DNA of 24,624 bases from positions 1-24,624 of IMG/VR virus record IMGVR_UViG_3300009423_000025, one strand, 5' to 3'. Shown piece by piece: positions 737-24,449 of the stretch. This DNA is from a virus. The notes below the pieces were generated by a model, which made no database searches, had not been told where the DNA came from, and was given only the letters and a program-made list of their open reading frames with translations. Each line of letters opens with the position of its first letter. Positions within the stretch are counted from its first letter, which is position 1. The position numbers and the translations under genes were made by a program.

Positions 737-2047
737 ATGCAAGATTTAAATAATTACAAAAAAAAATGGTTTGATTATTTAGGTTACAAACCTCATGCAG
801 GACAAGATAAATTGCACTTTCCTACTAAAGAATCTGCAAGGTTTTTTGTTATGGTTTGTGGGAGGAGATTTGGAAAGACAACTGCAAGTGCTATGGAAGC
901 GACATTTTATGCCTCCCAGCCTAATAAAAGAATTTGGTTAGTAGGCTTATCATACGATAAAGCTGACCTTATGTTCCGAGAAATATGGCAACTTATGGTT
1001 ATAGGACGTTCTAATGATGTAATTAAAGCTTCTGAAAAAGAAAGATATATTAAGTTTAAATGGGGAACTACTGTTGAAGCTAAATCAGCAGACAACCCTG
1101 ATTCACTTGTAGGTGAAGGTTTAGACCTGCTGATAATAGATGAAGCTGCCAAAGTAAAGCCAAGAATATGGGATATGTATTTATCACCTACTTTATCAGA
1201 TAGAAAAGGTAAAGGTATATTTATATCAACACCTGAAGGGTTTAATTGGTTATATGATTTATTTTTATTGGGAAAAAGTGATGAACTTTGGGAATCACAT
1301 CAAGCACCATCTTGGGATAACCAATATTCATTTCCAAAAGGTCAAAGTGATCAATTCCTTATTGAGAGAAAAAGGAATATGTCTAAAGAACTTTTTGACC
1401 AAGAGTACGGAGCACAATTTACATCGTTTGAAGGTAGGGTTTATCCTTTTGATAGGAATATTGATGTCGGCTACTATCCTTACAATCCACATCTTCCTAC
1501 TTTTTGTAGTATTGATTTTGGGTACAGGATGCCTTCTGTGGGATGGTATCAAACCTACCGAGTAAATGGTGAATGGCATATAAACATGATAGATGAAATA
1601 ATACATCAAACAAATATGAAAACAGATGAACTTGTACAAATGATTAAGAGTAAACCATATAGAGTAGGTAGATACTATGGTGACCCTGCTGGTTTACAAG
1701 CATCAAGTCAATCAGGTGTAGGAGATATAGAAATTTTTAGAAAAATGGGTATCGTAGTAAACACAATAACAGACAAAGCATCGAGAAGTATATCTGCTGG
1801 TATAAACCATGTAAGAAGCTTTATTGAAAATGCTAATGGTGAAAGATACTTACATTTAAATAGCAATTGTATGGGTATGGCAGAAGATTTAGAAAGTTAT
1901 AGGTATCCTGAAGTAGTAGAAGGAAAAGATTTAAAACCTGAACCATTAAAAGATGGTTACCATGATCATGGATGTGATCAATTAAGATATTTTTTTATTA
2001 ACCATTTTCCAATTAAAAACAGAGAAATTAAAGTGAGGAAGAGATAA
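737..2047 (+). CDS. terL: Terminase large subunit (packaging ATPase/nuclease)
   Basis: A 436-residue DNA-packaging motor that cuts concatemers and translocates DNA into the procapsid through the portal. The N-terminal ATPase has Walker A GRRFGKT at residues 42-48, Walker B LDLLIIDE at 129-136 with catalytic Glu, and the coupling motif FISTPEG at 162-168. The C-terminal RNase H-like nuclease shows the expected acidic residues: D260 in SIDFG, D316 in YYGDPAG, and D414 in the HGCDQLRYF stretch. The frame is open from 662, but the ATG at 737 follows AAAGG at good spacing and begins a normal TerL N-terminus, so it is chosen. The stop overlaps the portal start (TAATG). Length and motifs indicate an intact enzyme. 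Confidence 0.95.
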   Translation: MQDLNNYKKKWFDYLGYKPHAGQDKLHFPTKESARFFVMVCGRRFGKTTASAMEATFYASQPNKRIWLVGLSYDKADLMFREIWQLMVIGRSNDVIKASEKERYIKFKWGTTVEAKSADNPDSLVGEGLDLLIIDEAAKVKPRIWDMYLSPTLSDRKGKGIFISTPEGFNWLYDLFLLGKSDELWESHQAPSWDNQYSFPKGQSDQFLIERKRNMSKELFDQEYGAQFTSFEGRVYPFDRNIDVGYYPYNPHLPTFCSIDFGYRMPSVGWYQTYRVNGEWHINMIDEIIHQTNMKTDELVQMIKSKPYRVGRYYGDPAGLQASSQSGVGDIEIFRKMGIVVNTITDKASRSISAGINHVRSFIENANGERYLHLNSNCMGMAEDLESYRYPEVVEGKDLKPEPLKDGYHDHGCDQLRYFFINHFPIKNREIKVRKR

Positions 2048-3375
2048 TGTATTCAGAGGCTGATGTAATAAAAGAGAGTTTAAAGAATTTAAAAGTATAT
2101 AATCATAAAGAAAGAGAAGGTTATGTAAATAAACTTCTAGATTATTATAATGGAAATGCAACATTCCAATATATATCATCGAGATTTGATTTGGAAGCAT
2201 TTAGCGAAGTTCCTCCATATGAAGCGAACATAACTAAAAAGTTTATAAATAAAATGTCAAGAATCTATACAGTAGGTGCAGACAGAAACATAAATAATAG
2301 ATATTCTGATTTAACTGCACTTAAAGACTCTAAAATGAAGCACATAGAAAGAATGACACGTTTAATTGGAAGTATAGCAACTAGAATTATGTATATTGAT
2401 GGTGAAATGCCTTACTTTGATTATCAGCCTATATTTTATTTTCACCCTTTCTTTGATGATGACCCATTTAGACCAGTAGCTATATCATATCCATTAATGA
2501 ATTATAGTGAAGATGCATCAAATGACAATGGTTTACAATATATACATTGGAATGATGTAGAATATGTTATATTTGACGAAGAAGGTGATATTTTAGAGCA
2601 AAAAGAGCATAATTTAGGTGTTTTACCATTTGTATTTACACATAGAGAGCATCAATGTGATTCTTTCTTTGTAGAAGGTGCAAATGACATAATGAACGCT
2701 AACGAACACATAAATATAACCATGACTGAGATGCAACTTGGTTTAAGGTTTCAAATGTTTGGTCAGCCAGTAGTTACAGGTGCAGATTTAGGAAATAGAC
2801 AAAGATTTGGCTCAGATGTCATATTAGAGCTTCCTGAGGCAGCTGATTATGATATAAAATCACCATCAGGAGATATTGAGAAAGTTATAGAGAATGTTAA
2901 GTTCCAAATGGAGCTTGTAGCACAAAATAACCACCTATATGTACAATTTGCACAAGATGGTGGTGAAACTCCTAGTGGTATAGCCTTAAAAATTAAAGAT
3001 TTAGAAAGATTTGAAGATTACCAAGATGATTTAGCACTTTGGACACAATATGAGTACCAAATGTATAATATTGAAAGAAATATTGCAAAATCTAGGAACA
3101 TTAGCCTACCTAACAAGTTAAAGTTAGATTTTAACGAACCTGACTACCCAATGACAATCCAGGATCAAATTCTTTTGGATAATCATAGATTACAATTAAA
3201 TTTAATATCAGAAGCAGAGCTTTTAGTAGAGTATAATAAAGATTTAACAATACAGGAAGCAGAGAAGAAAATTGCCAACAATAGACAAAAAAACAAAAAA
3301 CAGTCAATCTTTAGTCAAGCTCGTGAGCAGGTTGAAACAACTCAAGGACTTCAAACCGAAGCTACCGAAGAGTAA
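2047..3375 (+). CDS. Portal protein
   Basis: A 442-residue protein encoded directly after terL and coupled to it by a TAATG overlap, with GAGGAAG as ribosome binding site inside the terL end. It looks like an SPP1 gp6-type portal. There is an N-terminal helical region with the KLLDYYNGN stretch near residue 30, a central beta-rich clip region containing the NLGVLPFVF segment, and a helical stem and crown. A C-terminal Gln/Lys/Glu-rich helical tail ends with QGLQTEATEE. The portal forms the dodecameric channel at the capsid vertex and docks TerL. The order terL-portal-head morphogenesis supports the call. No catalytic motif is expected and none is seen. Confidence 0.88.
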   Translation: MYSEADVIKESLKNLKVYNHKEREGYVNKLLDYYNGNATFQYISSRFDLEAFSEVPPYEANITKKFINKMSRIYTVGADRNINNRYSDLTALKDSKMKHIERMTRLIGSIATRIMYIDGEMPYFDYQPIFYFHPFFDDDPFRPVAISYPLMNYSEDASNDNGLQYIHWNDVEYVIFDEEGDILEQKEHNLGVLPFVFTHREHQCDSFFVEGANDIMNANEHINITMTEMQLGLRFQMFGQPVVTGADLGNRQRFGSDVILELPEAADYDIKSPSGDIEKVIENVKFQMELVAQNNHLYVQFAQDGGETPSGIALKIKDLERFEDYQDDLALWTQYEYQMYNIERNIAKSRNISLPNKLKLDFNEPDYPMTIQDQILLDNHRLQLNLISEAELLVEYNKDLTIQEAEKKIANNRQKNKKQSIFSQAREQVETTQGLQTEATEE

Positions 3376-3526
3376 AATTGAAGATATAATTGACAATCCT
3401 GAAGAGTGGGCAGAAGAGTTTGCTCAATTTGTACTAGAAACTGAAGGTAAAAGAATATTAGAAGCAAGAAGATTTGGTGAAAGATTCGCTAAATCATTAT
3501 TAGAGGATAAAGATGCCATCATTTAA
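3272..3526 (+). CDS. Small head-region protein, unknown function
   Basis: An open frame of up to 84 codons overlapping the portal 3' end by about 100 nt and ending just inside the next gene. It has no ATG. Possible starts are TTG 3272, GTG 3323 and TTG 3332, none with a clear ribosome binding site, so translation may depend on coupling to the portal stop at 3375. The part after the portal stop is a clean amphipathic helical protein (IDNPEEWAEEFAQFVLETEG). That acidic helical composition, unlike out-of-frame sequence, argues that it is real. A connector accessory role is possible from position only. I do not recognise the family. Confidence 0.55.
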   Translation: MPTIDKKTKNSQSLVKLVSRLKQLKDFKPKLPKSKIEDIIDNPEEWAEEFAQFVLETEGKRILEARRFGERFAKSLLEDKDAII

Positions 3527-4016
3527 AGATGCAATACACAATAAAAGTGGTTTATCAATAGATATAAGGTTTGACTTAAAACCATTAGTTGAAGCATTAG
3601 AAAAAGCACCTGATGATTTCTTTTTTCAACAAGAATTAGAACCATATTTTTTAAGAGCTGTTGAAAAAGGAGCTAAAGCTAAGATTAAAAAAGGCAAAGC
3701 TGGAAGACAGCTTAAACCATCTACTAAAGAAATAAGAATTAAAAGAGGACAACAGCCTGGACCACCACTATTAGCATCAGGAAAACTATTTAAGAGTATT
3801 GAAGCAAGAAAAGATGGTTTATATGCTGTAGATTATGCTCAACATCATTTAGATGGGTATACTGTAAAGAAAAAAAGTAGTGAATTTACAAGATTTTGGA
3901 AAAAAGACCATAGAGTACCAAGACGTAACTTCTTACCTACTAAAGAAAAGCTAGATATTGGTAAAGGACAAAAATTGTTAGTTAACAAAATAAACCGACT
4001 TATAAAAAGGAAGTAG
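3513..4016 (+). CDS. Phage virion morphogenesis (neck/tail-completion) protein
   Basis: A 167-residue basic protein. The central segment around residues 77-100 reads KRGQQPGPPLLASGKLFKSI. The later YAQHHLDG and VPRRNFLP motifs complete the pattern seen in the phage virion morphogenesis / HK97 gp10-like family. In that family an R-G-x-PPLL-x-SG-L-S strand and a terminal P-R-R-x-F-L motif are diagnostic. Such proteins sit at the head-tail interface and are needed for tail joining or completion. The ATG at 3513 follows GAGGATAA and overlaps the preceding gene. The C-terminus is strongly basic (INRLIKRK). Confidence 0.72.
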   Translation: MPSFKDAIHNKSGLSIDIRFDLKPLVEALEKAPDDFFFQQELEPYFLRAVEKGAKAKIKKGKAGRQLKPSTKEIRIKRGQQPGPPLLASGKLFKSIEARKDGLYAVDYAQHHLDGYTVKKKSSEFTRFWKKDHRVPRRNFLPTKEKLDIGKGQKLLVNKINRLIKRK

Positions 4017-4022
4017 AAAGAG

Positions 4023-4517
4023 ATGGCAGATGAAGAAAGAATTGACCAAGAAGAACTTAACGAAGAAGAACAAGCAATCTTTAGATGGACAGCCTTCCAA
4101 CTCTCTTTCGCAATTGATGCTTTTACTCAAGAGCTTAGAAGTGAGATTAGAAAGCTTAGAGCTTCAGGCATTAGCAATGCTGAAATTGGCAGAGTCCTTG
4201 CAGACGATCTTGCCTCAGGAGGAAGAATCTTCGGAAGATATAGAAATTCTCTTCAACGAGGAATTGTATCAGGAATTATGCAAGGTCATAGGGTCGGACA
4301 AGATAAAGTTTATGGCGATAGCATAAAATTAAGATGGGTAAGTGTTGGTTCAACAAACATTTGTCCTGATTGTGAAAAAAGAATAGGAAGAGTTGAAGAA
4401 TGGGATATATGGGAAAGTCTAGGTTTACCAGCAACAGGTTTTTCGGTTTGTAAAGAATATTGTTACTGCCAGTTAATCCCAGTTAAATATCCAATACAAA
4501 ACAGAATATTAGTATAA
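4023..4517 (+). CDS. MuF-like minor head protein (C-terminal type)
   Basis: A 164-residue protein. Residues 22-100 are helical and contain the GISNAEIGRVLADDL and GQDKVYGD stretches. The C-terminal half has W105VSVG, a C114-P-D-C117 pair, GLPATGFSVC near residue 143 and C147-Y-C149, followed by LIPV. This W-(x)-(P/G)...CPxC...GLP-x-G-x-S-x-C...C-x-C-x-L-x-P layout is the hallmark of Mu gpF-like head morphogenesis domains. These are minor capsid proteins often ejected or needed for capsid maturation. It is shorter than full Mu gpF because the usual N-terminal part is missing or reduced. The start follows AGGAAG in the 6-nt gap after the previous gene. Confidence 0.78.
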   Translation: MADEERIDQEELNEEEQAIFRWTAFQLSFAIDAFTQELRSEIRKLRASGISNAEIGRVLADDLASGGRIFGRYRNSLQRGIVSGIMQGHRVGQDKVYGDSIKLRWVSVGSTNICPDCEKRIGRVEEWDIWESLGLPATGFSVCKEYCYCQLIPVKYPIQNRILV

Positions 4518-4526
4518 TGGAACAAT

Positions 4527-4907
4527 ATGGAAAAAGAATTAGAATCAGTAGCTCAGGAGTTTTTGGGCAATTATGGATGGATGTTTATCGCTGGTATTGC
4601 TTTATTTACTTTTCGTTCAGCAATAGAAGGTATAGTTGAAGGATTAAAAGTTTTTGTAGGTAAAGATTTAAATACAGATGATGTAATAACTATAGATGAC
4701 AGACCAGCAAGAGTAGTTAGAGTAGGAATATTTAAAACTACTTTTTTTGTCTATAATATTGGATGTGCTAAAGGAAAACCTTTTGTAAAAGGTGGTGCTA
4801 AAATGCAAATACAAAATAGTGTACTTAAAAACCATAAAATTGAAAAGCCACTTCCTATGTTAGATTTAAGTAAATGGGAAGAAGAATGTGAGAACGAAAA
4901 TGAATAA
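4527..4907 (+). CDS. Minimal MscS-like membrane protein
   Basis: A 126-residue protein that reads like the TM3 helix plus beta domain of the small mechanosensitive channel MscS. Residues 17-30 (GWMFIAGIALFTFR) form a hydrophobic segment, followed by an amphipathic helix to about residue 43. Next come VGKDLNTDDVITIDD (44-58), RVVRVGIFKTTFF (62-74) and MQIQNSVLKNHKIEK (93-107). These parallel the MscS pattern of F-x-x-GD-x-V-x-(I/L), V-x-x-I-x-x-(F/T)-TT and (I/V)-x-(I/P)-N-x-x-(I/L). The first two MscS membrane helices and the C-terminal portal domain are absent. The gene lies in the head operon, 9 nt after the MuF-like gene and overlapping a small membrane peptide. A role in lysis, entry or membrane sealing is speculative. 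Confidence 0.6.
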   Translation: MEKELESVAQEFLGNYGWMFIAGIALFTFRSAIEGIVEGLKVFVGKDLNTDDVITIDDRPARVVRVGIFKTTFFVYNIGCAKGKPFVKGGAKMQIQNSVLKNHKIEKPLPMLDLSKWEEECENENE

Positions 4908-6314: not shown

Positions 6315-7106
6315 CTAGCATATAAACGCCCTGTTATTACTTTGAACTACAAAGCCCGACTTTATACCTTCTAGTAATTGCTGCTGTTTGAATTGAGCTG
6401 GTGCTTTAAACTTTAAGCCTACAATAACAGGTTTACCGTTTATCTTTTCATCCAGTCTTAAATCTGTTTGATCACCGTTTATGACTGTATATTCTTTATT
6501 ATTGATTTTGATATTCGGTGGCAATTCATTAAAAACCATTGCCACGTTTAAACCAGCTTTTAACGCTTTGAGCGTTTCAAACATCTTACCATAATGAGAA
6601 TAAGTTAATTGATAATTACCAGGCGTTTTACGTTTAAGAATTTTTGTATAGTCGTAGAACTCTATATCAGGAAACAGCTCAAATATATTCTTATTATCTT
6701 TTATTTTATAGCGTTCCCATAATATATCAGAATAAGCGTTCAATCTAAATGAAGGTTTAAGACCTTTGTTTTTAGCCTGTTTGATTGCTTTTTCTATTTC
6801 ATAGACTAAAGAGTTTAAAAAATAATCACGGTCTTTAAAAAATGAGATTGTTTTTTTAATACGACTTTCTAATACGCTTGAATATACATTGGCCAGGCCA
6901 CCACCACCAACGCAACTTAAACTGCAAGCAGCTTTGGATCCTGAAAATTTACTGTCATTATTACCAATTAATAATTCAGCTTTTTGGCATACATTATACC
7001 CTGATAAATTAGAGTGAGCAAAATTCAGGCTGTAAGTCAAATAACCTTCTTTCATATTCTTTTTTATTTTACTATTTGTTACACCGTTTGATAATAGATT
7101 AAACAT
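6315..7106 (-). CDS. GP88-like protein of unknown function
   Basis: A 263-residue protein, second in a two-gene minus-strand unit, with TAATG coupling to the upstream gene. It has C40, C61 and C65 (AACSLSCVGGGG), then SRIKKTISFF (81-90). FRLNAYSDILW follows at 120-130 and FYDYTKILKRK at 150-160, with VVQSNN near the end. The order cysteine cluster, R-x-x-x-T, F-R-(x)-N/H-x-x-D, F-Y-x-(Y/F)-TK resembles the gene-product-88 family found in phages and plasmids, whose biochemical role is not established. Similarity is by eye and distant. Base-word use differs from neighbouring genes, with frequent GCGT/ACGC, suggesting separate ancestry. Confidence 0.5.
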   Translation of the reverse strand: MFNLLSNGVTNSKIKKNMKEGYLTYSLNFAHSNLSGYNVCQKAELLIGNNDSKFSGSKAACSLSCVGGGGLANVYSSVLESRIKKTISFFKDRDYFLNSLVYEIEKAIKQAKNKGLKPSFRLNAYSDILWERYKIKDNKNIFELFPDIEFYDYTKILKRKTPGNYQLTYSHYGKMFETLKALKAGLNVAMVFNELPPNIKINNKEYTVINGDQTDLRLDEKINGKPVIVGLKFKAPAQFKQQQLLEGIKSGFVVQSNNRAFIC

Positions 7107-13409: not shown

Positions 13410-13925
13410 ATGAATACTAAATTTTTAAATTACAACACTTATTATAATTTGACTCATCAAGATAAAGAAATTATTGAAGAAATGGCAACTAATATTTGTA
13501 AACAAGATAGAAGCTATTTTTTAAATAATTATAAAATTGATAAAAATGTTAAATTGTATGAAATGAATTTAAATGGTTTTGGTGCTGAATTAGCTTTTTG
13601 TAGGCTTTGTGATGTAGAATTTGATTCTTCTACTATAGAAAAAGAAAATCATTTTAACAAAGAAGATGCTATATTAAAAAATGGAACAACTGTTGATGTA
13701 AAAAATACAATTTATCCAAATGGTAAACTGTTAGTCAGAATAGGTAAAGAAGAAAAAGATATAGATATATACGCTTTAGTTATAGGAAAGTTTCCTTCAT
13801 TTAAATTTGCAGGATGGGCATCTTATAAAGATATTATAAACCCTGAATTAAAAAAAGATTTAGGGTATGGACCTACATATTGTTTGCCACAAGATAATTT
13901 AAATAAAATACTTGAAATTAGTTGA
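13410..13925 (+). CDS. PD-(D/E)XK-like nuclease
   Basis: A 171-residue protein with a restriction-enzyme-like core. An N-terminal helix carries GFGAELAFCRL (E60), then EDAILKNGTTVDVKNT with D86 and D96-x-K98, followed by a beta strand NGKLLVR. A later strand DIDIYALVIG and the FKFAGWASYKDI segment are typical of phage-encoded PD-(D/E)XK proteins that resemble restriction or repair nucleases. The likely metal ligands are D86 and D96, with K98 catalytic. The start has AAAGG. It overlaps nothing upstream and sits 1 nt from the next gene. Confidence 0.62.
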   Translation: MNTKFLNYNTYYNLTHQDKEIIEEMATNICKQDRSYFLNNYKIDKNVKLYEMNLNGFGAELAFCRLCDVEFDSSTIEKENHFNKEDAILKNGTTVDVKNTIYPNGKLLVRIGKEEKDIDIYALVIGKFPSFKFAGWASYKDIINPELKKDLGYGPTYCLPQDNLNKILEIS

Positions 13926-13926
13926 T

Positions 13927-14280
13927 ATGAAATTTACAGGTAAAGTAAATAATGGTAAATTAACCTTAGATGATAAAGAGATGTTTAGGCAGTATTTGTT
14001 TAATTTTGATGGTTATGTGTCAATAGAAATAAAAGCTGCCGAAAAAGTACGTTCTCCACAACAAAATGCCTATTATAGAGTAATAGTTAGGGTTTTAGGC
14101 AAAGAACTTGGCTATACACAAGATGAAATGCATAAAGTTCTTAAAGATAAATATGAATTAGAATCGACTAAAGGTTTATCTGTCCAGGAATTTGGTGAAT
14201 ATATTGACCAAGTTATAAGATGGGCAGTTACCGAAATGGGTATTGTATTACCTGACCCTAAGCAAGTTCATCAATTGTAA
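13927..14280 (+). CDS. NinB-like recombination protein
   Basis: A 117-residue protein from the ATG at 13927 (a TTG at 13912 is in frame but less likely). RSPQQNAYYRVIVRVLGKEL and the following H-K-V-LKDKY resemble the NinB (lambda Orf) family, where RS-x-x-QNAxYW and a later H-x-x-LK are conserved. The end reads MGIVLPDPKQ, also typical. Lambda Orf binds ssDNA and helps load recombinase in place of RecFOR. The 3' end overlaps the convergent tail gene by 23 nt, and I see no terminator in the junction. Confidence 0.62.
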   Translation: MKFTGKVNNGKLTLDDKEMFRQYLFNFDGYVSIEIKAAEKVRSPQQNAYYRVIVRVLGKELGYTQDEMHKVLKDKYELESTKGLSVQEFGEYIDQVIRWAVTEMGIVLPDPKQVHQL

Positions 14281-15376
14281 CTTCAACTGAGTAAGTTCCT
14301 GGAGCAACTTGATCTACACTAAAAGTATTTTCTCTAAATGTACATATAGCAAATTGGTCAGGATTGCTGTTGTCTTTATCAGGTTGAAATATAAATGGCA
14401 GAGTTCCACCTAATGTACAATTCCATACAAAGTTAAAGCTATTATCTGATAACATAGGGTTAGGGTCGTTAAGTGTAGTATCAGTTTCACCATCACTTAT
14501 AAGTGTATTAGATACTTCATTTTCCATCCACATATCACTTTCTGCTATATAAGAGAATGTAAGTTTCCAACTTCTAAGTCCTTTTCTACCTAAACCACTT
14601 TTTGATATTTGATTAAAATCATTTGTTATCTCATTAATATCATCAGTAGCTGTATCGTCTGTGGTTGATGCAATTGTTGCTAAATCTAGTTCAAATGGTG
14701 GGTATTTATAAGTTCCATTAGGACCATTCATAGTCCATTCTGTTGGTCCATCATAGTATATATTAGATAACGTCTTACCACCTATAGTCTTTTGTGATTT
14801 AATGCCATCAAATCGTCTTGACATTGTAAGATTAAGGTCAGGCGAATTAGGACAATCAAAATACTTACCTACTACTAAAGAGCCTAATTGGTGTGTGTAA
14901 GTGTCAATACCTGATGGAAAAAAAACTGCAAAACTTCTCCAATAATCATCAAGACCATTTACATTATTAAAAGTCCATATACTTGTTCCATTATATTGAG
15001 GATTACAAAGGTTACCACTACTATTTGCATTTAATATATTTTTTTCAAATATATTAGAATCATTTAATTTAAATTCTCTTTCACCTGCAGATAGACCTGC
15101 TTTACCTGAAATTTTAAAATCGTTTGTATTAGAAGCAAAATTATGATTTAGTAATGCACAAAAATTAACAGGAAATGATGTTTTAGGATTATTGTTAGCA
15201 TTAGAACCTATTGTTATTGGAGAATTACTATCTACTTCTCTTAAATAAGGGTTAGAACAATTCATATACAATAATTCTGCTCCACCTCTTGTGTCATCCC
15301 AACCTAATTGTCCTGTGGCGTGTAAAAATGTAGGCATATCTACATAAAATCTTGGCGTTTTAACTTGTTTTCCCAT
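14258..15376 (-). CDS. Distal tail structural protein, unknown
   Basis: A 372-residue protein, the last gene of the tail operon, coupled to the upstream gene by TAATG. The composition is Asn/Ser/Thr/Gly-rich and beta-like, as in tail-tip or receptor-binding proteins. Landmarks are TPRFYVDMPTFLHATG at the N-terminus, CALLNHNF near residue 75, LGRKGLRSWKLTFSYIAESD about residue 260, and the closing VAPGTYSVEVTIDELA. I recognise no catalytic or carbohydrate-binding domain. The position after tape measure and tail-tip genes suggests a host-contact component. Confidence 0.55.
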   Translation of the reverse strand: MGKQVKTPRFYVDMPTFLHATGQLGWDDTRGGAELLYMNCSNPYLREVDSNSPITIGSNANNNPKTSFPVNFCALLNHNFASNTNDFKISGKAGLSAGEREFKLNDSNIFEKNILNANSSGNLCNPQYNGTSIWTFNNVNGLDDYWRSFAVFFPSGIDTYTHQLGSLVVGKYFDCPNSPDLNLTMSRRFDGIKSQKTIGGKTLSNIYYDGPTEWTMNGPNGTYKYPPFELDLATIASTTDDTATDDINEITNDFNQISKSGLGRKGLRSWKLTFSYIAESDMWMENEVSNTLISDGETDTTLNDPNPMLSDNSFNFVWNCTLGGTLPFIFQPDKDNSNPDQFAICTFRENTFSVDQVAPGTYSVEVTIDELA

Positions 15377-15945
15377 TAATATCCTCCTGAGCCTCCTGAA
15401 CTACCACCACCTGTTGTATATGAAGATGTTGTTGTTCTACGTTTTGTTTTAATTTTTGTTTTATCTACTGGCTTTGCTTCAGGTAAATCATCATCTATAA
15501 TGTAAGAAGTTTTCTTAACTTTACCATTGGGTGTAATATCTTTAAAATTATCCCAAGTATCTGCTTCTACATCTAAAGACCAATTTTGTTTAGTCCATTG
15601 TGATTCGTCTTTTTTAACAACACATTTAATTTGTTTACCTTCTACGTTTGCTACTATAGCTTTATTTAATTTTATTGTGCCTTCATATTGAAATAGTAAT
15701 TGATTTTTTATAGGAACATTTTGCATAGTAAAGATTATAATCTTACTAGAGTTACCTCTTAAATACCAACCTTCAGGTAATGTAGGTTTTATGTTAACTT
15801 TCCCTGTAAAATGTATTTCTATTCCCATTATGTCAGTATTAGACGATATTAAACACTCACCATTTTCATAACTAATTGTAGCAGTACCACTTGCTATTTT
15901 GCTACTAAAATCATAAACTTCTGATATTTTCTTTGCTATTGCCAT
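15376..15945 (-). CDS. Cohesin-like domain protein with Gly/Ser-rich tail
   Basis: A 189-residue protein lying between the dockerin-ended tail protein and the last tail gene, coupled to both by TAATG. Residues about 20-110 follow a cohesin-like pattern. A strand start CLISSNTDIMGIEIHFTG parallels the V-x-GFQF/I strand of cohesins. KIIIFTMQNVPIKNQLLFQY parallels their V-L-x-F-x-x-x-x-x-I-P-x-G-x-G-x-L-x-x-I-x-F strand pair. The middle (SLDVEADTWDNFKDI) and the low-complexity TTTSSYTTGGGSSGGSGGY tail are linkers. Cohesins bind dockerins, and the preceding gene ends with one. The similarity is a pattern judgement, not a search; another beta-sandwich is possible. Confidence 0.45.
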   Translation of the reverse strand: MAIAKKISEVYDFSSKIASGTATISYENGECLISSNTDIMGIEIHFTGKVNIKPTLPEGWYLRGNSSKIIIFTMQNVPIKNQLLFQYEGTIKLNKAIVANVEGKQIKCVVKKDESQWTKQNWSLDVEADTWDNFKDITPNGKVKKTSYIIDDDLPEAKPVDKTKIKTKRRTTTSSYTTGGGSSGGSGGY

Positions 15946-18900
15946 TATCCCCCTACAATTACCTGTACCAACATTACTATGTCTAACACATTAACTTGTC
16001 CATCACCATTCATATCTGCTATGTTTCTACCTTCATCATCTTTAGGAAAATTATCCCAATTATCAGAAACTATTGAAGTTACAACAGTAACTACATCTAG
16101 CACATTAATTACATCATCTTGATTAACATCTCCATATAAACCATTAAACTCAAATTCTTCTTCAGGCATTCCAAATTGTGTAAAATATGCTTCATCTTGA
16201 TAGTCTGCTGTATTTTTTACTTCTATAACAAATTCTATTAAAGCATTTTCAGGATATAATTCAAATTTCTTTTCTATTTGTAAAATACCATTATTACCAT
16301 CCATATTAAGTGCAACATTTACTAAATCACTAGCATCAACTTCACCTAAAGGTATATTTTCTGCTTCTTCATAAGTCGTATTATTATATGTAAATGTATC
16401 AGATATATTTTTTGCCCATATATTATATTCCCAAGTTTCATCCATATTAGTTGATACAAGTGCATAAACTGTTCCATCGTTTAAAATGCTACTTCCTGTC
16501 ATATCTAACCTTAAAAAAGGGTCTACAATAGAATCCCATTCTTCAGTATCAATAGAATCTTCGCTATAGTTAGAATCATCTCCTGGATCAGGTAGTTGAT
16601 AGTTTTCTGTAACATCATTACCATTACCATTAATAATATCACCTGTATCTTCTTCAGCTATGCTTGGATAACCATATTCGCCACGATGCACTTGTACTGC
16701 TTCAATCATTACTTTACTTAAATATTTAGATATTTTTGTTATAAAAAATACATCATATATAAGTTGTCCATTACGTTGCTCAGGTGTTGTATAATCATAT
16801 CCAAATGCAAGGTTACCACCTAATAACTCACTAAACTTAATATAATCACCTGCTTCTAGATACATATAATGTGGTGGTAAATCTATCTTAGTTACTAAAT
16901 GTTGATTACAATACCACATCAATAATCTTTTTTGTAATTTTTCTGCTGTATATTTATCTCTAATATAATCTGATTCTACTTCTAATTTTGATTCTGTTGA
17001 CAATTTACCATAATAATCAATACTATAAGCACTACCCTCAGAATATCCCAAACCATCTGTAGTTAGTTGATCATAATTTTCATAGATACCATTGTCTATG
17101 TTAAATCCAGTTTGACTATCATAATCACCACTAGCATAATTCTTTTTATAATGAACATTAACAGAATTATACACATCATCTAATTTCGTTAATTGAAATG
17201 AATAATTTAACACATCGTCATTACTTATAAATTGAACATCAGTATAGCTTTCTATAATTTGTTTTATGCCAATAAATTTAAATTGTCCAGCACTATTAAA
17301 TGTTGGTATCAAAAGAGATGATTTAAATATGCCTTCAAATATTTCTTTAGCTTCTATTTGCTCATTTACAGTAAATCCATATTGCCAATTATTTTGTATA
17401 TCAGTATTTTGGTTATCAACATTACCATCATACGACAACTCATCAGTAAGTATGTTTTCTAATATATCTTGTGCAGTTGTTATTATATTTCCATCTTTTA
17501 CCCTACCACCAACACTTGCATAATAATCTAGATTAGCATAATCTTCTAAAAGAAAATCTTGCAACACATATATTTCTTTTAGATTAGCTGAAACATAATT
17601 GACTCCAGTATTTGTAAAAGAAGGTGAGCCAAATTGTATAGAATCAAAAGCATTTGTTGTATTAAAAGATTGTATTATGTTACTAACACCATCTGTATTA
17701 TGTAATAGTCCATCTTCATACTCTAATCTTGCATAATCAGTATTATTTGTTTGTATTTCATTACCTAAACTACCATCATCTGCTCTTTCTGTAACAACCA
17801 TTTCATGTATACCATTTGGAAATTGTGGAGGAATTGCACCATAACTTGGTATATAAGATAACCATTCTTGTAAAGTGTTTATAAAAGTTGGGGTTGATGA
17901 CGCTTCAGGCATTAAAAATCGTTCTGCCCAAAAAGATGCAAATCTTGGCTGTGAACCTTGATAAACAAGGTTGTTTGGATTATCTATATTTCCATTAGTA
18001 AAAAAACAAGCATCATAGAATATTTTAGTTACACAAGGAAAATCACCTATTGTTGCATCTTGATTTAAAAATAATCTAGCAAAACTACCTGCTCCTTGTG
18101 TTTGACCATAACTAAGATTTGTAGCTGTTATATGTAAGCCACTATTTTCATCATTATTTTGTATCATATCAATAGGAAATTTAGCAGATTCTTCATACCC
18201 ATTGTAAAATTGCTTCCAATTCTCATCAATAACATCAGCTCTTATTTCTTCTGTATCTAATTCATAAGCATCATTAACTTGTGTGGGTTGCCAAAACTTT
18301 AACACATCACCCTCATTAGGTCCATTATCCCAAAATTCATTATATATATCTTGTGCCATTGACTCGCTGTTATCAGTTTCAGAATCTAGAAATATAGCTA
18401 TATTATTTATGATTGTTTGCATACTACCATCATCATTTTTATAACCAATAAACTTATTATTTGAAGCTTGAAAATAATCACTTTGATGATTAAGATTTTT
18501 AGCGTAAAATGTTGCATCTACTATAGGTCTATACATTCGTGATGGTATAGCAAATGTTTCTTCTTCATCACCTTCTTCAGTTGTATCTATATATGCATCA
18601 GCATTTAATATAATATTTGCTGAATTATCACTTGTTGCATTGTTAAAATTGTAAAACTCCAAATCTTCTACTTCATAAATGCCACTACCAAAATGTTTAG
18701 GTCCTTTTTCGTATATTGAAACAAAACCATCTTTGTATGCACTTAAATATTTGTTTTGTCTTAAATATCCATTTTCTACTAATGGATGACCTTCTTTAAT
18801 TGCAGGATTTTGATAGTAATCAGTTCCTGACCAAAAACCAAATATTTCTTTATTAGGCTTATCTATTTCAAGTGTATCTAAACCTTTCTTAATTGTTGGA

Positions 18901-19478
18901 CTATTATCTACATAACCATACACTAAAGGGTAAGGTTTACCAATGTCATCATGTTTATATTGTAATTCATCTTCTACTAATGTAGATGGTATTGTAGTTT
19001 TAAGTTTTTGTTCAGTTAAATCTTCTAAAGTAAGTTTAATGTCATTTTTAGATTGATTATAACGCCTAATAGTACCTGTATAGACAAGTAAACAATCATC
19101 TAGGGTGTCTAGTCCAGTAGCAGCATAATACACTTGTACTACTGCATTTAGTAGACTTGGAATATCATCTGAAAAAATCTTACCATTATAGGGAGCATTT
19201 GATATAGACAATGATACATTAGAAATTGTGTATTTATTGTTTATAATGTCTGCTTTTGAAACTATTTGGGGAGTGTTTAAAAGTAAAGGTAAATACCCTG
19301 AATATGTACCATCTAGATTTTTGATTGACGTTTCTTTTATTGATAAGTTTATTGATTCTGCATCATCAGGAATAGTATCATCTATCTGATAACCTTTATA
19401 AATTTTAACTAAAGGATATAAAGATGTTCTTGATCCTGGTCCTAATGCTTGTTTAAACTTTGCTGGTAATTGTAACAT
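15945..19478 (-). CDS. Tail-tip/hub protein with C-terminal dockerin
   Basis: A 1177-residue protein immediately after the tape measure. The N-terminus (ALGPGSRTSLYPLVKIYKGY, then YYAATGLDTLDDCLLVYTG and LTLEDLTEQKLKTTIPS) is beta-rich, as in tail-tip/baseplate hub proteins that open with a strand reading VSLSISN. The central region is Asn/Asp-rich beta sequence with aromatic residues. Residues about 1113-1177 are a complete type I dockerin (separate entry). The size and position suit the structure that closes the tail tube and carries receptor-binding parts. TAATG junctions link it to both neighbours. The role as hub is inferred from order; the dockerin is seen directly. Confidence 0.7.
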   Translation of the reverse strand: MLQLPAKFKQALGPGSRTSLYPLVKIYKGYQIDDTIPDDAESINLSIKETSIKNLDGTYSGYLPLLLNTPQIVSKADIINNKYTISNVSLSISNAPYNGKIFSDDIPSLLNAVVQVYYAATGLDTLDDCLLVYTGTIRRYNQSKNDIKLTLEDLTEQKLKTTIPSTLVEDELQYKHDDIGKPYPLVYGYVDNSPTIKKGLDTLEIDKPNKEIFGFWSGTDYYQNPAIKEGHPLVENGYLRQNKYLSAYKDGFVSIYEKGPKHFGSGIYEVEDLEFYNFNNATSDNSANIILNADAYIDTTEEGDEEETFAIPSRMYRPIVDATFYAKNLNHQSDYFQASNNKFIGYKNDDGSMQTIINNIAIFLDSETDNSESMAQDIYNEFWDNGPNEGDVLKFWQPTQVNDAYELDTEEIRADVIDENWKQFYNGYEESAKFPIDMIQNNDENSGLHITATNLSYGQTQGAGSFARLFLNQDATIGDFPCVTKIFYDACFFTNGNIDNPNNLVYQGSQPRFASFWAERFLMPEASSTPTFINTLQEWLSYIPSYGAIPPQFPNGIHEMVVTERADDGSLGNEIQTNNTDYARLEYEDGLLHNTDGVSNIIQSFNTTNAFDSIQFGSPSFTNTGVNYVSANLKEIYVLQDFLLEDYANLDYYASVGGRVKDGNIITTAQDILENILTDELSYDGNVDNQNTDIQNNWQYGFTVNEQIEAKEIFEGIFKSSLLIPTFNSAGQFKFIGIKQIIESYTDVQFISNDDVLNYSFQLTKLDDVYNSVNVHYKKNYASGDYDSQTGFNIDNGIYENYDQLTTDGLGYSEGSAYSIDYYGKLSTESKLEVESDYIRDKYTAEKLQKRLLMWYCNQHLVTKIDLPPHYMYLEAGDYIKFSELLGGNLAFGYDYTTPEQRNGQLIYDVFFITKISKYLSKVMIEAVQVHRGEYGYPSIAEEDTGDIINGNGNDVTENYQLPDPGDDSNYSEDSIDTEEWDSIVDPFLRLDMTGSSILNDGTVYALVSTNMDETWEYNIWAKNISDTFTYNNTTYEEAENIPLGEVDASDLVNVALNMDGNNGILQIEKKFELYPENALIEFVIEVKNTADYQDEAYFTQFGMPEEEFEFNGLYGDVNQDDVINVLDVVTVVTSIVSDNWDNFPKDDEGRNIADMNGDGQVNVLDIVMLVQVIVGG
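15948..16142 (-). other. Type I dockerin domain (two EF-hand-like repeats)
   Basis: The last 65 residues of the tail-tip protein. Repeat 1 is GDVNQDDVINVLDVV with D1117, N1119, D1121, N1125 and D1128; repeat 2 is ADMNGDGQVNVLDIV with D1155, N1157, D1159, N1163 and D1166. All ten calcium-ligand positions of the D-x-N-x-D-(G)-x-x-N-x-x-D loop are filled, and both loops are followed by the V-V/I-x-L-V-x-x-I helix. Type I dockerins bind cohesin modules with high affinity when calcium-loaded. Confidence 0.92.
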
Positions 19479-22063
19479 TAACCTATCCCAAAATCACTAC
19501 CCCTACGGACAGCTTCTTTAATTTGCTCTGCAAGTTCACCTTCTACAAAATCTTGTGTCATAACATTTCCTGATACATTTATTACTACATTACCACTAGC
19601 TGTACCACCACCTCTATTCATTTGATTAAGAGTTTCTAGTCCAATAGATTCTACAGCTCTTCTACTCATTACAAACTCACCACGTTCTGCTTCTATTAAA
19701 GTGCCACCTTCTGAATGTCTTCTACCACCTACATAACCACCATCTTCAAACTGTAAAGCACCACCAGGACCTGTAGGTTTACTTCCACCTCCACCACCAG
19801 CACCCATTTTACCCATAGAATTTTCTATTTGTGCTACAGCAGCCAATCCTGATACTAATATTGCAGCAGCTTTAACTGGTGTTTTTAATGCAGCAGTAAA
19901 GGCTTCGTATGTGTTTATAATAGCAGATAATTGTGAAAGTCTAGCAGCAACTTTTGCTCCTTCTTTATGTTGTGAAGCAGCAAGACCTAAAGCATCTAAT
20001 AATTGTACAGTAGAATCTTTTTCTGCTTTATTTCTAAATATAGATAGTTTATGTGTCTTACCATCTAAATCTTCTACCTCTTCTTTTTGTACTTTTAAAT
20101 TATGAATAGCTATAGCAAGTTCATTTGTAAGACCTATTTCTTCTGCTATTTTTTCTAGCTTTAATATTTTTGTATCTATTTCTTTTAATTCTGTTTGTGT
20201 TGTTTTTTCTAAAACTTGAGAAAGTATACCTTCTTCTTCTGATAGTAATTGCTTTAATTCTTTTTCTTTTTCAAATAAAGCGTTTAACTCTCTTATTCTG
20301 TCAGCGTGTTCTGTAGATATAACAACACCTTTAGCTGCTTGTTCATTTAAAAACATTTGAGCAGCACTTACACCTTGAACTTTTGCAATTCTTTTTTCTA
20401 GTCTTGCTATTTGATTAAGACCTATAGATTTGCCTTCAGTTACAATAAAATCTTCTAATTCATCTTTTAAAGCTTTCTGTGCTTCTTTTACATCGTTTAT
20501 ATTAATACCATATCTATCCATAAGCTCATTAGCAAGTCTTTGTTGTTGTATATCGCCATCAGTATTGTATTCTCGCATAGATACTTTAAGTTTATCCATT
20601 TCTTTGCGAACTTTTGCTTGAGCTTTACTAAAGTCTAGGTTAGTTCCTGTTAAATCAGCCAATCTTTTTTCTAACATTACTATTGTTTCTTGTAATACTT
20701 TAAATTCTGTTTCAGGCATTAATTTAATAGGTTCAGGTGTAGCTACTGGTTCAAAAGTTAAATCGACAGGCTCTAAAAATAAATTTTCATTAAGTTGTTG
20801 ACCCATAGCTTTTGTTTGTTCATCAGAAGTTTTTCTTAACTTTTCTAATTCATCTTCTATTTGACCTATTGTAAATAATTGTATTTGTTTATTATATTCA
20901 GTCAGCTCTTTGTTTAAATCTGATATTCCTTGAGTTGCATCATCAGTATCTTCTTTTGATGGAAATATTTTATTCCATATATATCCAAGAGCTTCAAATG
21001 CCAGTAATGCAATTGCAAAAATTTTAGAAGCTCTTATAAAACCTTTTGTTGCTTTTGTAGCAAAATCCATAGCAGTACCAAATGCTGTTGTACCTGCTTT
21101 AACTTTTATAAATTTACTTGAAAGTAAAGTAAGAACAGTTGCTAACCCAGCAAAAAATGTTTGTAAATCAGTTAATGGTTTTAATAAAGTTATAGTAATT
21201 TTTGCAAATGCTTTTACTACAGGCATTAACTTTTGACCCAATATAATAGCTGTTTCTTCAAATTCAGCACTTAATGCTTTCATTACATTAGCATAAGAGT
21301 CTGCTGTTCTTATTGCATCACCTTGTGCATCTGATGAATCCATTTGTAGTATTGCTAATCTTGCTAAAATCTTTTCTTGATCAGTAAGTGTTTCACCTGC
21401 TTCAATAAGACCTTGGTCCATAGCAACCTGTTGCATTCTAGCTTCAGATATTACTATACCATATTTTCTTACTGTTTCATGGTTGCCTACAAGAGCAGAG
21501 TTAAAATCTCTCATAGCATCAGATTCAGATACGTTATTGAAAGATGCTACGTCTATTGCAGTTTTTACTATTTCTTTTGATAAATTGGCAGCTTCGTGCC
21601 TTAACATACCCATAGGTACAAGTATATCCTGTACTGAGGCAGTCATTTGAATTAAACTAAATCTTGACCTTCCTGTTGCATCTGATGTTTGTTGTGCAAA
21701 ATCTAATACAGAATCTGTACTTGCTCCAAACACTACTGAAGCTTTAGCCATTTGCTCTTCAGCATCACCAGCCATGTTAGCTAGTTTTAATAAAGATGCA
21801 GCAAATAAACCTGAAGCAAATGATGCAAGAAGCATTTGTGACCTTAGAACAGAGAATGTTCCACCAACATTTCTAGCTGCTTTTTGTTGTGCAAGAAATC
21901 CATCTGCTGTTTTCTTTTGTGCTACAGTTAAAGGTCCTGAAGCACCAACTAACATTCTATTGTTAGCTGCTAATTGTTCTACTTGTTTATTTAATGATTT
22001 TACTGCTGCTATTACACCAGGATGACCCTGTGCAGCGAACTTTATATTAATTTTATTTGACAT
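19478..22063 (-). CDS. Tape measure protein
   Basis: An 861-residue protein that sets tail length and is later ejected. The N-terminal third (MSNKINIKFAAQGHPGVIAA) leads into SLLKLANMAGDAEEQMAKAS, MTASVQDILVPMGM and SFNNVSESDAMRDFNSALVG, the recognisable tape measure core. Hydrophobic segments are ITLLKPLTDLQTFFAGLATV and ASKIFAIALLAFEALGYIWN. Long coiled coils fill about residues 370-690. The Gly-rich C-terminus (GGYVGGRRHSEGGTLIEAER, GEFVMSRRAVESIG) is a common tape measure ending. If about 1.5 angstrom per residue holds, the tail would be roughly 130 nm. Confidence 0.9.
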   Translation of the reverse strand: MSNKINIKFAAQGHPGVIAAVKSLNKQVEQLAANNRMLVGASGPLTVAQKKTADGFLAQQKAARNVGGTFSVLRSQMLLASFASGLFAASLLKLANMAGDAEEQMAKASVVFGASTDSVLDFAQQTSDATGRSRFSLIQMTASVQDILVPMGMLRHEAANLSKEIVKTAIDVASFNNVSESDAMRDFNSALVGNHETVRKYGIVISEARMQQVAMDQGLIEAGETLTDQEKILARLAILQMDSSDAQGDAIRTADSYANVMKALSAEFEETAIILGQKLMPVVKAFAKITITLLKPLTDLQTFFAGLATVLTLLSSKFIKVKAGTTAFGTAMDFATKATKGFIRASKIFAIALLAFEALGYIWNKIFPSKEDTDDATQGISDLNKELTEYNKQIQLFTIGQIEDELEKLRKTSDEQTKAMGQQLNENLFLEPVDLTFEPVATPEPIKLMPETEFKVLQETIVMLEKRLADLTGTNLDFSKAQAKVRKEMDKLKVSMREYNTDGDIQQQRLANELMDRYGININDVKEAQKALKDELEDFIVTEGKSIGLNQIARLEKRIAKVQGVSAAQMFLNEQAAKGVVISTEHADRIRELNALFEKEKELKQLLSEEEGILSQVLEKTTQTELKEIDTKILKLEKIAEEIGLTNELAIAIHNLKVQKEEVEDLDGKTHKLSIFRNKAEKDSTVQLLDALGLAASQHKEGAKVAARLSQLSAIINTYEAFTAALKTPVKAAAILVSGLAAVAQIENSMGKMGAGGGGGSKPTGPGGALQFEDGGYVGGRRHSEGGTLIEAERGEFVMSRRAVESIGLETLNQMNRGGGTASGNVVINVSGNVMTQDFVEGELAEQIKEAVRRGSDFGIG

Positions 22064-22496
22064 TCTTTGCCTTTGCTTTCTGTTTTGCTTTACTTATCAT
22101 CATGCCTTCTTTTTTTGCAAATGCATTTTTAATTGCTATAAATCTTCTAACCCATTTTGCAGGTTGTTCTCCATATGATCCAGGGAATGGAGGTGTACCA
22201 CTATTTACACAATATGTGTATCTTTCTACATCTCTACTAATCTCTTTAGTGTAGAAATGATTGGTACAAGTAAAGAATGGTAATTGAGCAATAATTGATT
22301 TATCCTCATCAAAATTCGTTCCATTTGCATTACTTTCCCTAACTTCTTCTTGTAAAAGCCATATAACTTCCCATACATCATCCATAGAATTAAATTCTAT
22401 TTCTTTTCTTTTACCATCTATTGCTATAGGTGGTATAGCTTTGTAAGGAAATTGGTGGCAAGAACACCCCCCACACCCATCACTTATTAGTGCTAT
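22053..22496 (-). CDS. Tail assembly chaperone, second ORF (made by -1 frameshift)
   Basis: The frame is open from the end of the first chaperone ORF with no ATG, GTG or TTG before the ATG at complement 22383-22385, which has no ribosome binding site. The conserved part starts earlier: IALISDGCGGCSCHQF, YKAIPPIAIDGKRKEIEF, then MDDVWEVIWLLQEEV. A Cys/Gly-rich start in the -1 frame therefore requires frameshifting. Joining at the AAAA just before the first stop gives a 243-residue fusion, analogous to lambda gpG-gpT. Chaperones of this type bind the tape measure while the tail tube assembles. It overlaps the tape measure start by 11 nt. Confidence 0.7.
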   Translation of the reverse strand: MALISDGCGGCSCHQFPYKAIPPIAIDGKRKEIEFNSMDDVWEVIWLLQEEVRESNANGTNFDEDKSIIAQLPFFTCTNHFYTKEISRDVERYTYCVNSGTPPFPGSYGEQPAKWVRRFIAIKNAFAKKEGMMISKAKQKAKAKNVK

Positions 22497-22499
22497 TTT
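22493..22499 (-). promoter_or_regulatory. Probable -1 frameshift site at the first chaperone stop
   Basis: Read on the minus strand the site is A-AAA-TAG: Lys-AAA precedes the stop codon and is itself preceded by A, so tRNA-Lys can re-pair fully one base back and then read ATA. A G5 run (complement 22519-22523) lies upstream and is an alternative slip point. No lambda-type GGGAAAG heptamer is present in the correct phase. Confidence 0.45.
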
Positions 22500-22783
22500 G
22501 AGTTGGAGGGTTTCCCTTCCCCCTGATTCATAAACTCACTTTGCATAACAGAGAATATTTCTACTTTTTCTTCAAAAGTTATATCTTTGAGAAACTTATC
22601 TGATGTATCACCATCTAATCCTAATCTAATCCACTTTGTCATTGTAGAGTGCATCATTTTAATTTTAGTTGGATTCCCATCTTTGTCCATTTCCCATTCA
22701 ATAGCATCCATCATCTCATCTTGCTCATCTATAGAAACGTTTTTTAGTTTTAATTTTCTACCTGATTTGAGTTCAAACTTCAT
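22493..22783 (-). CDS. Tail assembly chaperone, first ORF (gpG-like)
   Basis: A 96-residue acidic helical protein between the major tail protein and the tape measure gene, the standard position of tail assembly chaperones. The N-terminus MKFELKSGRKLKLKNVSIDE and the EQDEMMDAIEWEMDKDGNPT helix, then TKWIRLGLDGDTSDKFLKDI, are typical. AAGG lies before the ATG. Its TAG stop lies in A-AAA-TAG, where the second ORF continues in the -1 frame. Confidence 0.75.
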   Translation of the reverse strand: MKFELKSGRKLKLKNVSIDEQDEMMDAIEWEMDKDGNPTKIKMMHSTMTKWIRLGLDGDTSDKFLKDITFEEKVEIFSVMQSEFMNQGEGKPSNSK

Positions 22784-22806
22784 GTATTTATTTCCTTATT
22801 ATTTTA

Positions 22807-23814
22807 TTAAGCTAAAGTAATATCAAGCACATTGCCTGATTCTTTGTTTAGTGCCTTCATTTCAACATCTAACATCATTATATCACCTTCGTTGTAGGCA
22901 ACATTAGTTAATACACCACATGGTATTGAAATAGATGCATTAGCAGCAGTTGTTTGTGTTAAAGTAAACAAATCAGCAGCATCATGTGTTGATTGTGTGT
23001 CAAATTCAGCAGGTAACTCCATAGTTACACTATCCAATTTAACTGTAGCATTCATTGTAATTGCTATTTCTTCACTTCTACCAAAACAAGCATAACCTGC
23101 TCCTTCGTCAACACCTGTATAAACAGCTGGACTATCAATTGTTACTCCAAATGATGATAGTATTGGTGAAGTTTTACTTGCAATTTTAACTGCTGAAACA
23201 TCAATACCTGACATATCAATATGATTAGCATCATAAGCTGTGCCTGATACTGCTGTATTATCTGTAAGGTCAGGAACTCTACCTGAACTTATTGTAGCAC
23301 TAAACTTATATTGACCACCATCTGTACCCATATCAGCGTTTAATGTAAAGTTAGTACATAAACATCCTTTTAAAACTATGTTCTGTGCATCACTTCTATC
23401 AGGTGATTGTATTACTAATGTAAATGTTTTGTTTTCTTCAGAAGCTCCATATCTACCTACTGTTGCAGATGGTGCAACACCTATTGTTACATCACCTACT
23501 GATCCTGGATTTAAAGCCATTGCTGTAACACTTTGCATTAACATTACATGACCACCATCTTTATGAAATGTTCCTGATAAAGACAATTCTACTGCTCTCA
23601 TATCATTATCTTGGAAAAAATCATCAATATGTGCGACTCTGCCTGTTTGACTTCTTACATTTGAAACTTGATTTACATTTAGTCCTGGAAAAGAAACTGA
23701 ATCTACATCTAACTGATATACATTTGCTGTTGATGTTAAATCGGTTGGTGTGCCTGTTGCTCCTGTTTCCTCAGATACAAACACCTTAAAATCTTTTGGT
23801 GAAAATACTGACAT
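22807..23814 (-). CDS. Major tail protein (tail tube)
   Basis: A 335-residue protein upstream of the chaperone and tape measure genes. N-terminus MSVFSPKDFKVFVSEETG, then YQLDVDSVSFPGLNVNQ and SGTFHKDGGHVML; later FTLNADMGTDGGQYKFSATI and a repeat of beta-strand patterns to the end. These features fit a siphovirus tail-tube subunit, possibly with a C-terminal surface domain. The start directly follows the previous stop with GGAGG upstream. No Ig-like domain is clearly recognised at the end. It is the most abundant tail component in such phages. Confidence 0.8.
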   Translation of the reverse strand: MSVFSPKDFKVFVSEETGATGTPTDLTSTANVYQLDVDSVSFPGLNVNQVSNVRSQTGRVAHIDDFFQDNDMRAVELSLSGTFHKDGGHVMLMQSVTAMALNPGSVGDVTIGVAPSATVGRYGASEENKTFTLVIQSPDRSDAQNIVLKGCLCTNFTLNADMGTDGGQYKFSATISSGRVPDLTDNTAVSGTAYDANHIDMSGIDVSAVKIASKTSPILSSFGVTIDSPAVYTGVDEGAGYACFGRSEEIAITMNATVKLDSVTMELPAEFDTQSTHDAADLFTLTQTTAANASISIPCGVLTNVAYNEGDIMMLDVEMKALNKESGNVLDITLA

Positions 23815-24003
23815 CTATTTATCCTCCTTCTTAGGTTGCTTTTTTTCAGCACCTACTGTTTCTACTTTATCTTTAATGAACTTGTTTATTTCGTCAAGTT
23901 CTACTGTTTTCCCTTGTTCTAGAGCAATCCAATCTTTATATGATAAACCACAATGATTATCCATAGATGATAGATGTACTCCTTTTTTTAGTTTTACTTT
24001 CAT
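23815..24003 (-). CDS. Small tail-region protein (62 aa)
   Basis: The start at complement 24001-24003 is fixed by a perfect AGGAGG 5 nt upstream; the frame extends to 24045 but that part overlaps the preceding gene. MKVKLKKGVHLSSMDNHCG, then DWIALEQGKTVELDEINKFI and a Lys/Glu-rich end. The KVxLKxG...Lxx...GxxVxL pattern resembles small FeS-like or structural phage adaptors between terminator and tube genes. Function unknown. Confidence 0.55.
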   Translation of the reverse strand: MKVKLKKGVHLSSMDNHCGLSYKDWIALEQGKTVELDEINKFIKDKVETVGAEKKQPKKEDK

Positions 24004-24011
24004 AAAACCTC

Positions 24012-24449
24012 CTATCCTACATTTGCTAAATGTTGTCCAATCCAAGTCAACTGCACAACATATTCGTTTTCGTCATCTAAGGCATTTAGCTCAGTTGTTT
24101 GAATACGACAATTAAAACATCTAGAGCTGTCAGCGAGTGTCATTGAGATGTTATCGTGTATTAATGCCTCAATCCTTGATGTTACTCTTAGAACTTGATC
24201 TAATGCATTTTTATTAACATTAGGTTCTGAAAAGTAATAATACATATCTATTGTAAATTCTCTTGTTTCGGCAGATATATCATATTTCAATAATTCACTA
24301 CCTATAGGGTCTAATCTTAAAAACTGTGTACCAGCATCTTTAGTTTCATGTCCAATATACACAGGCAGAGTAGACTTAAATTCTGTTCTAATTATACCTC
24401 TTAATTTATCAAGAATACCCTTAAAGTTGTTAGTAAAAGTTATAGCCAT
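24012..24449 (-). CDS. Tail terminator/tail completion protein
   Basis: A 145-residue protein located upstream of the major tail protein gene and coupled to the preceding gene by TAATG. IRTEFKSTLPVYIGHETKDA and SAETREFTIDMYYYFSEPN, then a central helix VLRVTSRIEALIHDN and the closing YVVQLTWIGQHL form the alpha-beta layout of tail terminator proteins. These cap the tail tube and bind the head connector. The call rests on layout and position; a minor tail protein is the alternative. Confidence 0.6.
   Translation of the reverse strand: MAITFTNNFKGILDKLRGIIRTEFKSTLPVYIGHETKDAGTQFLRLDPIGSELLKYDISAETREFTIDMYYYFSEPNVNKNALDQVLRVTSRIEALIHDNISMTLADSSRCFNCRIQTTELNALDDENEYVVQLTWIGQHLANVG

Follow-up and report, generated by a model that had tools for sequence, protein, structure and literature searches.

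A type I dockerin on a phage tail-tip hub and a predicted cohesin-fold partner encoded next to it: a probable structural joint of the tail tip

Dockerins are known mainly from cellulosomes, and also from a range of other bacterial and archaeal proteins, and they dock onto cohesins. Type I dockerins fold upon calcium binding. The cohesin-dockerin pairs described from these sources are among the strongest non-covalent protein joints known. The hubs at the tail tips of phages T5 and lambda are trimers, with T5 pb3 carrying the central fibre and lambda gpJ carrying a receptor-binding domain covalently.

In one phage, Vibrio phage VvAW1, the authors reported that gene 40 resembles a dockerin type I cellulosome protein and raised the possibility that it is an attP-linked gene derived from bacteria; the text on this gene mentions neither a tail role nor a cohesin partner (PMC3558961). 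A search of the PMC literature, of incomplete coverage, returned no report of a phage tail cohesin-dockerin pair.

We analyzed a stretch of 24,624 nucleotides (the window, positions 1 to 24,624 of IMG/VR record IMGVR_UViG_3300009423_000025), which belongs to an uncultivated, probably marine phage group. The window and its relatives encode a tail-tip hub fold with a conserved dockerin, a linked neighboring protein with a predicted cohesin fold and, in two relatives, one fusion of each kind: hub with neighbor, and neighbor with a lectin domain. The phage tail tip probably uses a dockerin-cohesin pair as a structural joint from the hub to an adaptor. The features are listed in Table 1.

Table 1. 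Features of the tail-tip region in window coordinates
Feature	Coordinates	Strand	Basis
Tail-tip hub protein, 1177 aa	15945..19478	(-)	ORF; model matches DT57C baseplate, T5 and lambda tail tips, GTA hub
Hub body, residues 1-935	16674..19478	(-)	Conserved block in 30 homologues; hub folds
Beta-sandwich domain preceding the dockerin, residues ~989-1102	16173..16514	(-)	Nine strands; block pLDDT about 81-89
Type I dockerin (C-terminal 65 residues of hub)	15948..16142	(-)	PF00404; conserved in 35/35 distinct relatives
Calcium loop 1, DVNQDDVINVLD, residues 1117-1128	16095..16130	(-)	Invariant D1117, D1121, N1125, D1128
Calcium loop 2, DMNGDGQVNVLD, residues 1155-1166	15981..16016	(-)	Invariant D1155, D1159, N1163, D1166
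Adaptor protein, 189 aa, predicted cohesin-fold domain and disordered tail ending GSGGY	15376..15945	(-)	ORF; conservation
Predicted nine-stranded cohesin-fold domain, residues ~15-112	15610..15903	(-)	Block pLDDT about 89-94; ten best PDB matches are cohesins
Adaptor disordered linker and tail (predicted)	15379..15609	(-)	pLDDT < 50; conservation
Third tail-tip gene, 372 aa, candidate receptor-binding protein	14258..15376	(-)	Conserved ends, hypervariable middle
Tape measure protein candidate, 861 aa	19478..22063	(-)	ORF; directly upstream of hub; position and composition

The hub and its C-terminal dockerin

The hub gene sits directly behind an 861-residue open frame that, from its position and composition, would encode the tape measure protein, the placement expected of a tail-tip hub. 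An AlphaFold2 model of the hub was built from an alignment of 30 homologues and, with a mean pLDDT of 67, is of moderate reliability. Its best matches in the PDB were the baseplate protein of the T5-like phage DT57C (2.4e-15) and the T5 tail tip (2.6e-15), with the lambda tail tip (3.3e-9), JBD30, Chi and a gene transfer agent (GTA) also among the best. By its predicted fold, the 1177-residue protein is a siphophage tail-tip hub of the T5 pb3 / lambda gpJ class. We found 15 relatives of the hub in IMG/VR, no match among 50,697 annotated phage records and none in a host search of 84,980 genomes. The beta-sandwich before the dockerin is poorly conserved in sequence among relatives and is possibly Ig-like. 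Many antibody-fold (VHH) chains are among the lower PDB matches of the whole hub model; we attribute them to this domain by inference, as the structure-search output carries no query ranges.

The whole tail block lies on the (-) strand of the window (14258-24449), with the terminase large subunit and the genes following it on the + strand (662-4907). A gene of the Gene product 88 family (PF17338, E 2.5e-31) is encoded apart from the tail genes at 6315-7106 (-).

The Pfam model Dockerin_1 (PF00404) matched hub residues 1115-1171 over model positions 1-53 of 57 (E 6.6e-7) with 29.9 bits, the gathering cut-off being 22.9 bits, and a scan of the whole 24.6-kb record returned this single dockerin (E 1.2e-10). 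The pattern D-x-N-x-D-x-x-x-N-x-x-D is exact in both DVNQDDVINVLD and DMNGDGQVNVLD. Helices were predicted by AlphaFold2 at residues 1126-1138 and 1164-1175, matching those expected after each dockerin loop. In related contigs with 39-100% hub identity, the 35 distinct dockerin tails all retain both loops (70/70 loops), and eight calcium-ligand positions are invariant in the alignment of 30 hubs, so the match is not due to chance. Every hub homologue whose C-terminus is reached ends in a dockerin. This conservation indicates that the dockerin is maintained by selection, although the domain preceding it is poorly conserved. No match to the dockerin was found among annotated phages, with the qualification that the BLAST low-complexity filter may hide some. 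The preliminary description, made by reading the DNA alone, had called the protein a tail-tip protein and claimed a complete type I dockerin in its last 65 residues, with the loop pattern fully conserved in each loop and the accompanying helices. The structural matches bear out the label, the Pfam check it had proposed was positive, the pattern is as described, and the helices are present in the model.

The adaptor and the third tail-tip gene

What the preliminary description had missed is the gene beside the dockerin. The start codon of this adaptor gene overlaps the hub stop codon by one base (TAATG), and the two are probably translationally coupled. Every relative covering that stretch has the adaptor gene immediately after the hub and, within the close family, every adaptor gene in loci covering both sits directly behind a dockerin-ended hub.

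A cohesin was first suggested by the adaptor sequence on inspection. A model built from a 33-sequence alignment is confident for residues 15-112 only, and in it this part forms a nine-stranded jelly roll of the cohesin kind. When the model was compared with the PDB using Foldseek, ranks 1 to 10 were all cohesins (E 2.6e-5 to 7.8e-4, probability 1.00), including structures of cohesin-dockerin complexes (6kgf, 4dh2, 5k39). The TM-scores against cohesins are modest (0.30-0.35 by query, 0.34-0.45 by target), partly because 88 of the 189 residues are disordered. In a library of viral structure models, nine unnamed proteins match the adaptor at 1.4e-7 or better.

Sequence methods were negative throughout. 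The Pfam cohesin model (PF00963) had no match in any of 17 viral records (the window and 16 related ones), nor in any of 53 diverse adaptors. Adaptor profiles, including that of the 53, had no similarity to 20 clostridial cohesins by hhalign (probability 0.1-0.2), and the adaptor profile found no cohesin chain among PDB sequences. Pfam and PHROGs returned nothing for the window adaptor, and annotated phages gave no real match. We therefore do not class the adaptor as a PF00963 member by sequence score or profile similarity. Its N-terminal domain is predicted to adopt a cohesin fold and, in its genetic behavior, resembles a cohesin, an assignment drawn from the predicted structure together with the linkage described below. 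One diverse adaptor ORF matches phrog_347, 'tail terminator'.

Conserved features of the adaptor tail are W117, W131, (T)WDNFK, DLP and the terminal GGY, and a GGGGGY end recurs in an adaptor subfamily at ~20-25% identity. After the cohesin-fold domain, adaptors of the distant A9 and A11 families (such as L193:8835-9494 and L144:3377-3994) share a second motif, H-I-H-x-D-x-x-A-M-T-G-x-x-H, that is absent from the window adaptor. In another relative, L168, a Laminin_G_3 lectin domain (E 1.8e-23) comes after the adaptor domain.

The third tail-tip gene encodes a 372-residue protein with no Pfam or PHROG match. The adaptors encoded at loci L004 and L005 are almost identical, but their third proteins differ; in its C-terminal half, the L005 third protein matches that of L006. 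As judged from these sequences, the candidate receptor-binding protein appears to undergo mosaic exchange, and the difference between L004 and L005 is the pattern expected of a receptor-binding protein. In the window, this gene overlaps the convergent ORF 13912-14280 by 23 bases. The third tail-tip proteins encoded at L227:4305-5627 and L229:6642-8459 have their own internal dockerin between conserved blocks, and that of L227, at least, is homologous to the product of 14258-15376. Some relatives thus combine a single cohesin-fold gene with two dockerins, one on either side.

Linkage of dockerin and adaptor, and rival explanations

To determine how closely the two genes are linked, we scanned IMG/VR for a DNA pattern that describes one dockerin loop and takes no account of the adaptor. 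The scan found at least 119 stretches, and the matches listed comprise 111 loci with 3260 ORFs. Dockerins within 12 residues of the C-terminus of an ORF, of which there are 72 among the matches listed, were counted as C-terminal. An adaptor-family gene is directly downstream in 67 of the 68 C-terminal cases listed that have at least 400 bp of downstream DNA, compared to 8 of the 32 listed dockerins located elsewhere in an ORF (Fisher p 3e-15). Only 22 of the 67 adaptors listed belong to the close family of the window; the other 45 are distant. Conversely, all 75 adaptor-family ORFs among the 3260 listed are directly behind a dockerin ORF. As some loci are near-duplicates, these counts overstate independence; with identical tails removed, the linkage among the matches listed is 63/64.

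The linkage follows the hub. Among the matches listed, 68 of the 73 hub-like dockerin ORFs have the adaptor, and four of the five without it have little or no downstream DNA; in the fifth (L113) a wider profile detected the adaptor (E 2e-9). Non-hub dockerin ORFs have it in 7 of 35 cases listed; all seven are short and probably represent truncated hubs. The other 28 listed include trypsin-like and arylsulfotransferase proteins, and the sole C-terminal exception with room downstream among the matches listed, in L164, is an arylsulfotransferase. The latter, at L164:5535-6806, is secreted-looking and encoded in a viral contig, as are trypsin-like ORFs with dockerins in L134, L136, L141, L153 and L210. 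In the L210 protein, the stretch before the dockerin reads like a cohesin that Pfam does not detect.

We also searched in reverse from two distant adaptor subfamilies, with loci partly shared with the first scan. A dockerin-ended ORF is directly upstream of the adaptor in 15/16 and 19/21 loci (34/37). Hub-like ORFs without a recognizable dockerin are encoded directly before an adaptor-family gene at L247:1438-4998 and L251:2-1330. A mirror-tree comparison of the dockerin and the cohesin-fold domain gave a partial r of 0.09 (permutation p 0.023), the correlation being nearly all shared ancestry, and beyond that ancestry dockerin and adaptor show no useful co-variation.

In one relative the two proteins are joined. 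L234:1807-6669 is a single 1621-residue open frame with the hub N-terminus (E 9e-34), the hub core (3.6e-46) and the adaptor domain (1.9e-19), and is a natural hub-adaptor fusion. All that is left at the position where a dockerin could lie is a single degenerate EF-like loop, near residue 1305. A search for relatives returned that contig alone.

Other explanations of the dockerin and its neighbor are possible, though each has a low probability. The neighbor could be a beta-sandwich resembling a carbohydrate-binding module (CBM) that binds host glycans, the two genes being just neighbors within one conserved operon of the tail tip and their products making no contact. Consistent with this, the Foldseek matches from rank 11 onward include cellulose- and chitin-binding modules with a similar fold, the adaptor lacks sequence similarity to cohesins, and L247 and L251 have an adaptor gene without a recognizable hub dockerin. 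However, the first ten structural matches are all cohesins, and conservation of an operon alone leaves unexplained why the adaptor goes with the dockerin yet is missing next to dockerins on non-hub proteins. The fusion in L234 also argues against it, and residues such as LFxYxG are kept in adaptors down to ~20% identity, unlike what we would expect of a glycan binder driven by its host. We consider this explanation very improbable.

Similarly improbable is that the dockerin is itself the receptor-binding module, for a cohesin on the host surface, and the neighboring gene unrelated. The C-terminus of the hub does house the receptor-binding domain in lambda gpJ, and other contigs have dockerins on secreted-looking proteins (trypsin-like, arylsulfotransferase). 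This phage, however, seems to carry a cohesin-fold partner next door with near-complete linkage across highly diverged families, hub and adaptor domain are fused in L234, and the dockerin loops are without sign of receptor-driven diversification. Least probable is that the dockerin serves only the hub itself, as a calcium-stabilized C-terminal cap or as a folding or trimerization element, and binds nothing outside it: the calcium-dependent folding of type I dockerins and the trimeric hubs of T5 and lambda fit this, but neither the linked cohesin-fold gene in 67/68 cases among the matches listed nor the L234 fusion is explained.

The proposed joint and known systems

The combination of a hub dockerin with a cohesin-fold protein encoded by the next gene suggests that the parts for host recognition are probably clipped to the tail through this pair. 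In the dockerin-cohesin joint we propose, a hub of the trimer type would have no receptor-binding domain of its own and would terminate in a beta-sandwich followed by a type I dockerin. The N-terminal cohesin-fold domain of the adaptor would dock onto the dockerin while the latter is calcium-loaded, and the disordered adaptor tail would hold the next tail-tip protein, most likely the 372-residue product of the third gene acting as the receptor-binding protein. In some relatives a receptor-binding domain may instead be fused to the cohesin-fold domain. A docking joint would thus replace the covalent link to the receptor-binding domain found in lambda gpJ. We infer the physical binding, its calcium dependence and stoichiometry, the location in the virion and the role of the third protein.

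Three uses of the dockerin had been proposed in the preliminary description. Joining of tail-tip subunits and display of a receptor-binding module both gain support: the product of the adjacent phage gene is a predicted cohesin-fold protein accompanying the dockerin hub in nearly all relatives, and in one relative that protein carries a lectin domain. The third, binding of a host-surface cohesin, is unnecessary since the phage seems to supply its own.

A wider reading is more doubtful, and we offer it tentatively. A widespread branch of tailed phages may separate the tail tip from the host-recognition parts by a standard, reversible, calcium-gated plug and socket. Adaptors with different receptor-binding modules would then be exchangeable by recombination, or even between virions assembled in one cell, with calcium controlling completion of the tip.

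A joint of this kind between hub and adaptor in many diverse phages would explain how receptor-binding parts that can be swapped are fixed to these tails. It would also extend the cohesin fold by a very divergent family, offer a simple test of tail-tip assembly (calcium, EDTA, loop mutants) and be a source of new small cohesin-dockerin pairs for protein engineering.

Dockerins and cohesins were already known, while the proposed joint between a phage tail hub and an adaptor, and the divergent cohesin-fold family, appear to be new. Like the cellulosomal type I pairs (Acetivibrio/Clostridium CipA, OlpC, CaCohA2), the phage has a type I dockerin with both calcium loops, and the partner domain has a cohesin fold as judged by comparison of the predicted structure. 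Unlike them, the phage encodes a single dockerin and a single cohesin-fold domain, in neighboring genes, without scaffoldin repeats and with no enzymes seen; the record encodes neither a scaffoldin with several cohesins nor dockerin-bearing enzymes, and none of the ten window proteins scanned against Pfam is a glycoside hydrolase. The phage cohesin-fold domain is also shorter (~95 residues versus ~140 in cellulosomal cohesins), with no detectable sequence similarity. The Archaeoglobus fulgidus cohesin (2xdh) is similar to the adaptor in predicted fold (2.2e-4), with a target-normalized TM-score of 0.45, the best of the top ten. The phage family differs from archaeal and non-cellulosomal cohesins in being shorter, PF00963-negative and paired with a tail hub. 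As in X module-dockerin dyads (C. thermocellum CipA XDoc, 5g5d), a beta-sandwich directly precedes the phage dockerin; the latter, unlike in those dyads, is type I by Pfam and has a different partner. With T5 pb3 and lambda gpJ the phage protein shares the fold of the hub body and the position after a tape measure candidate. It differs from both in that its C-terminus is a dockerin.
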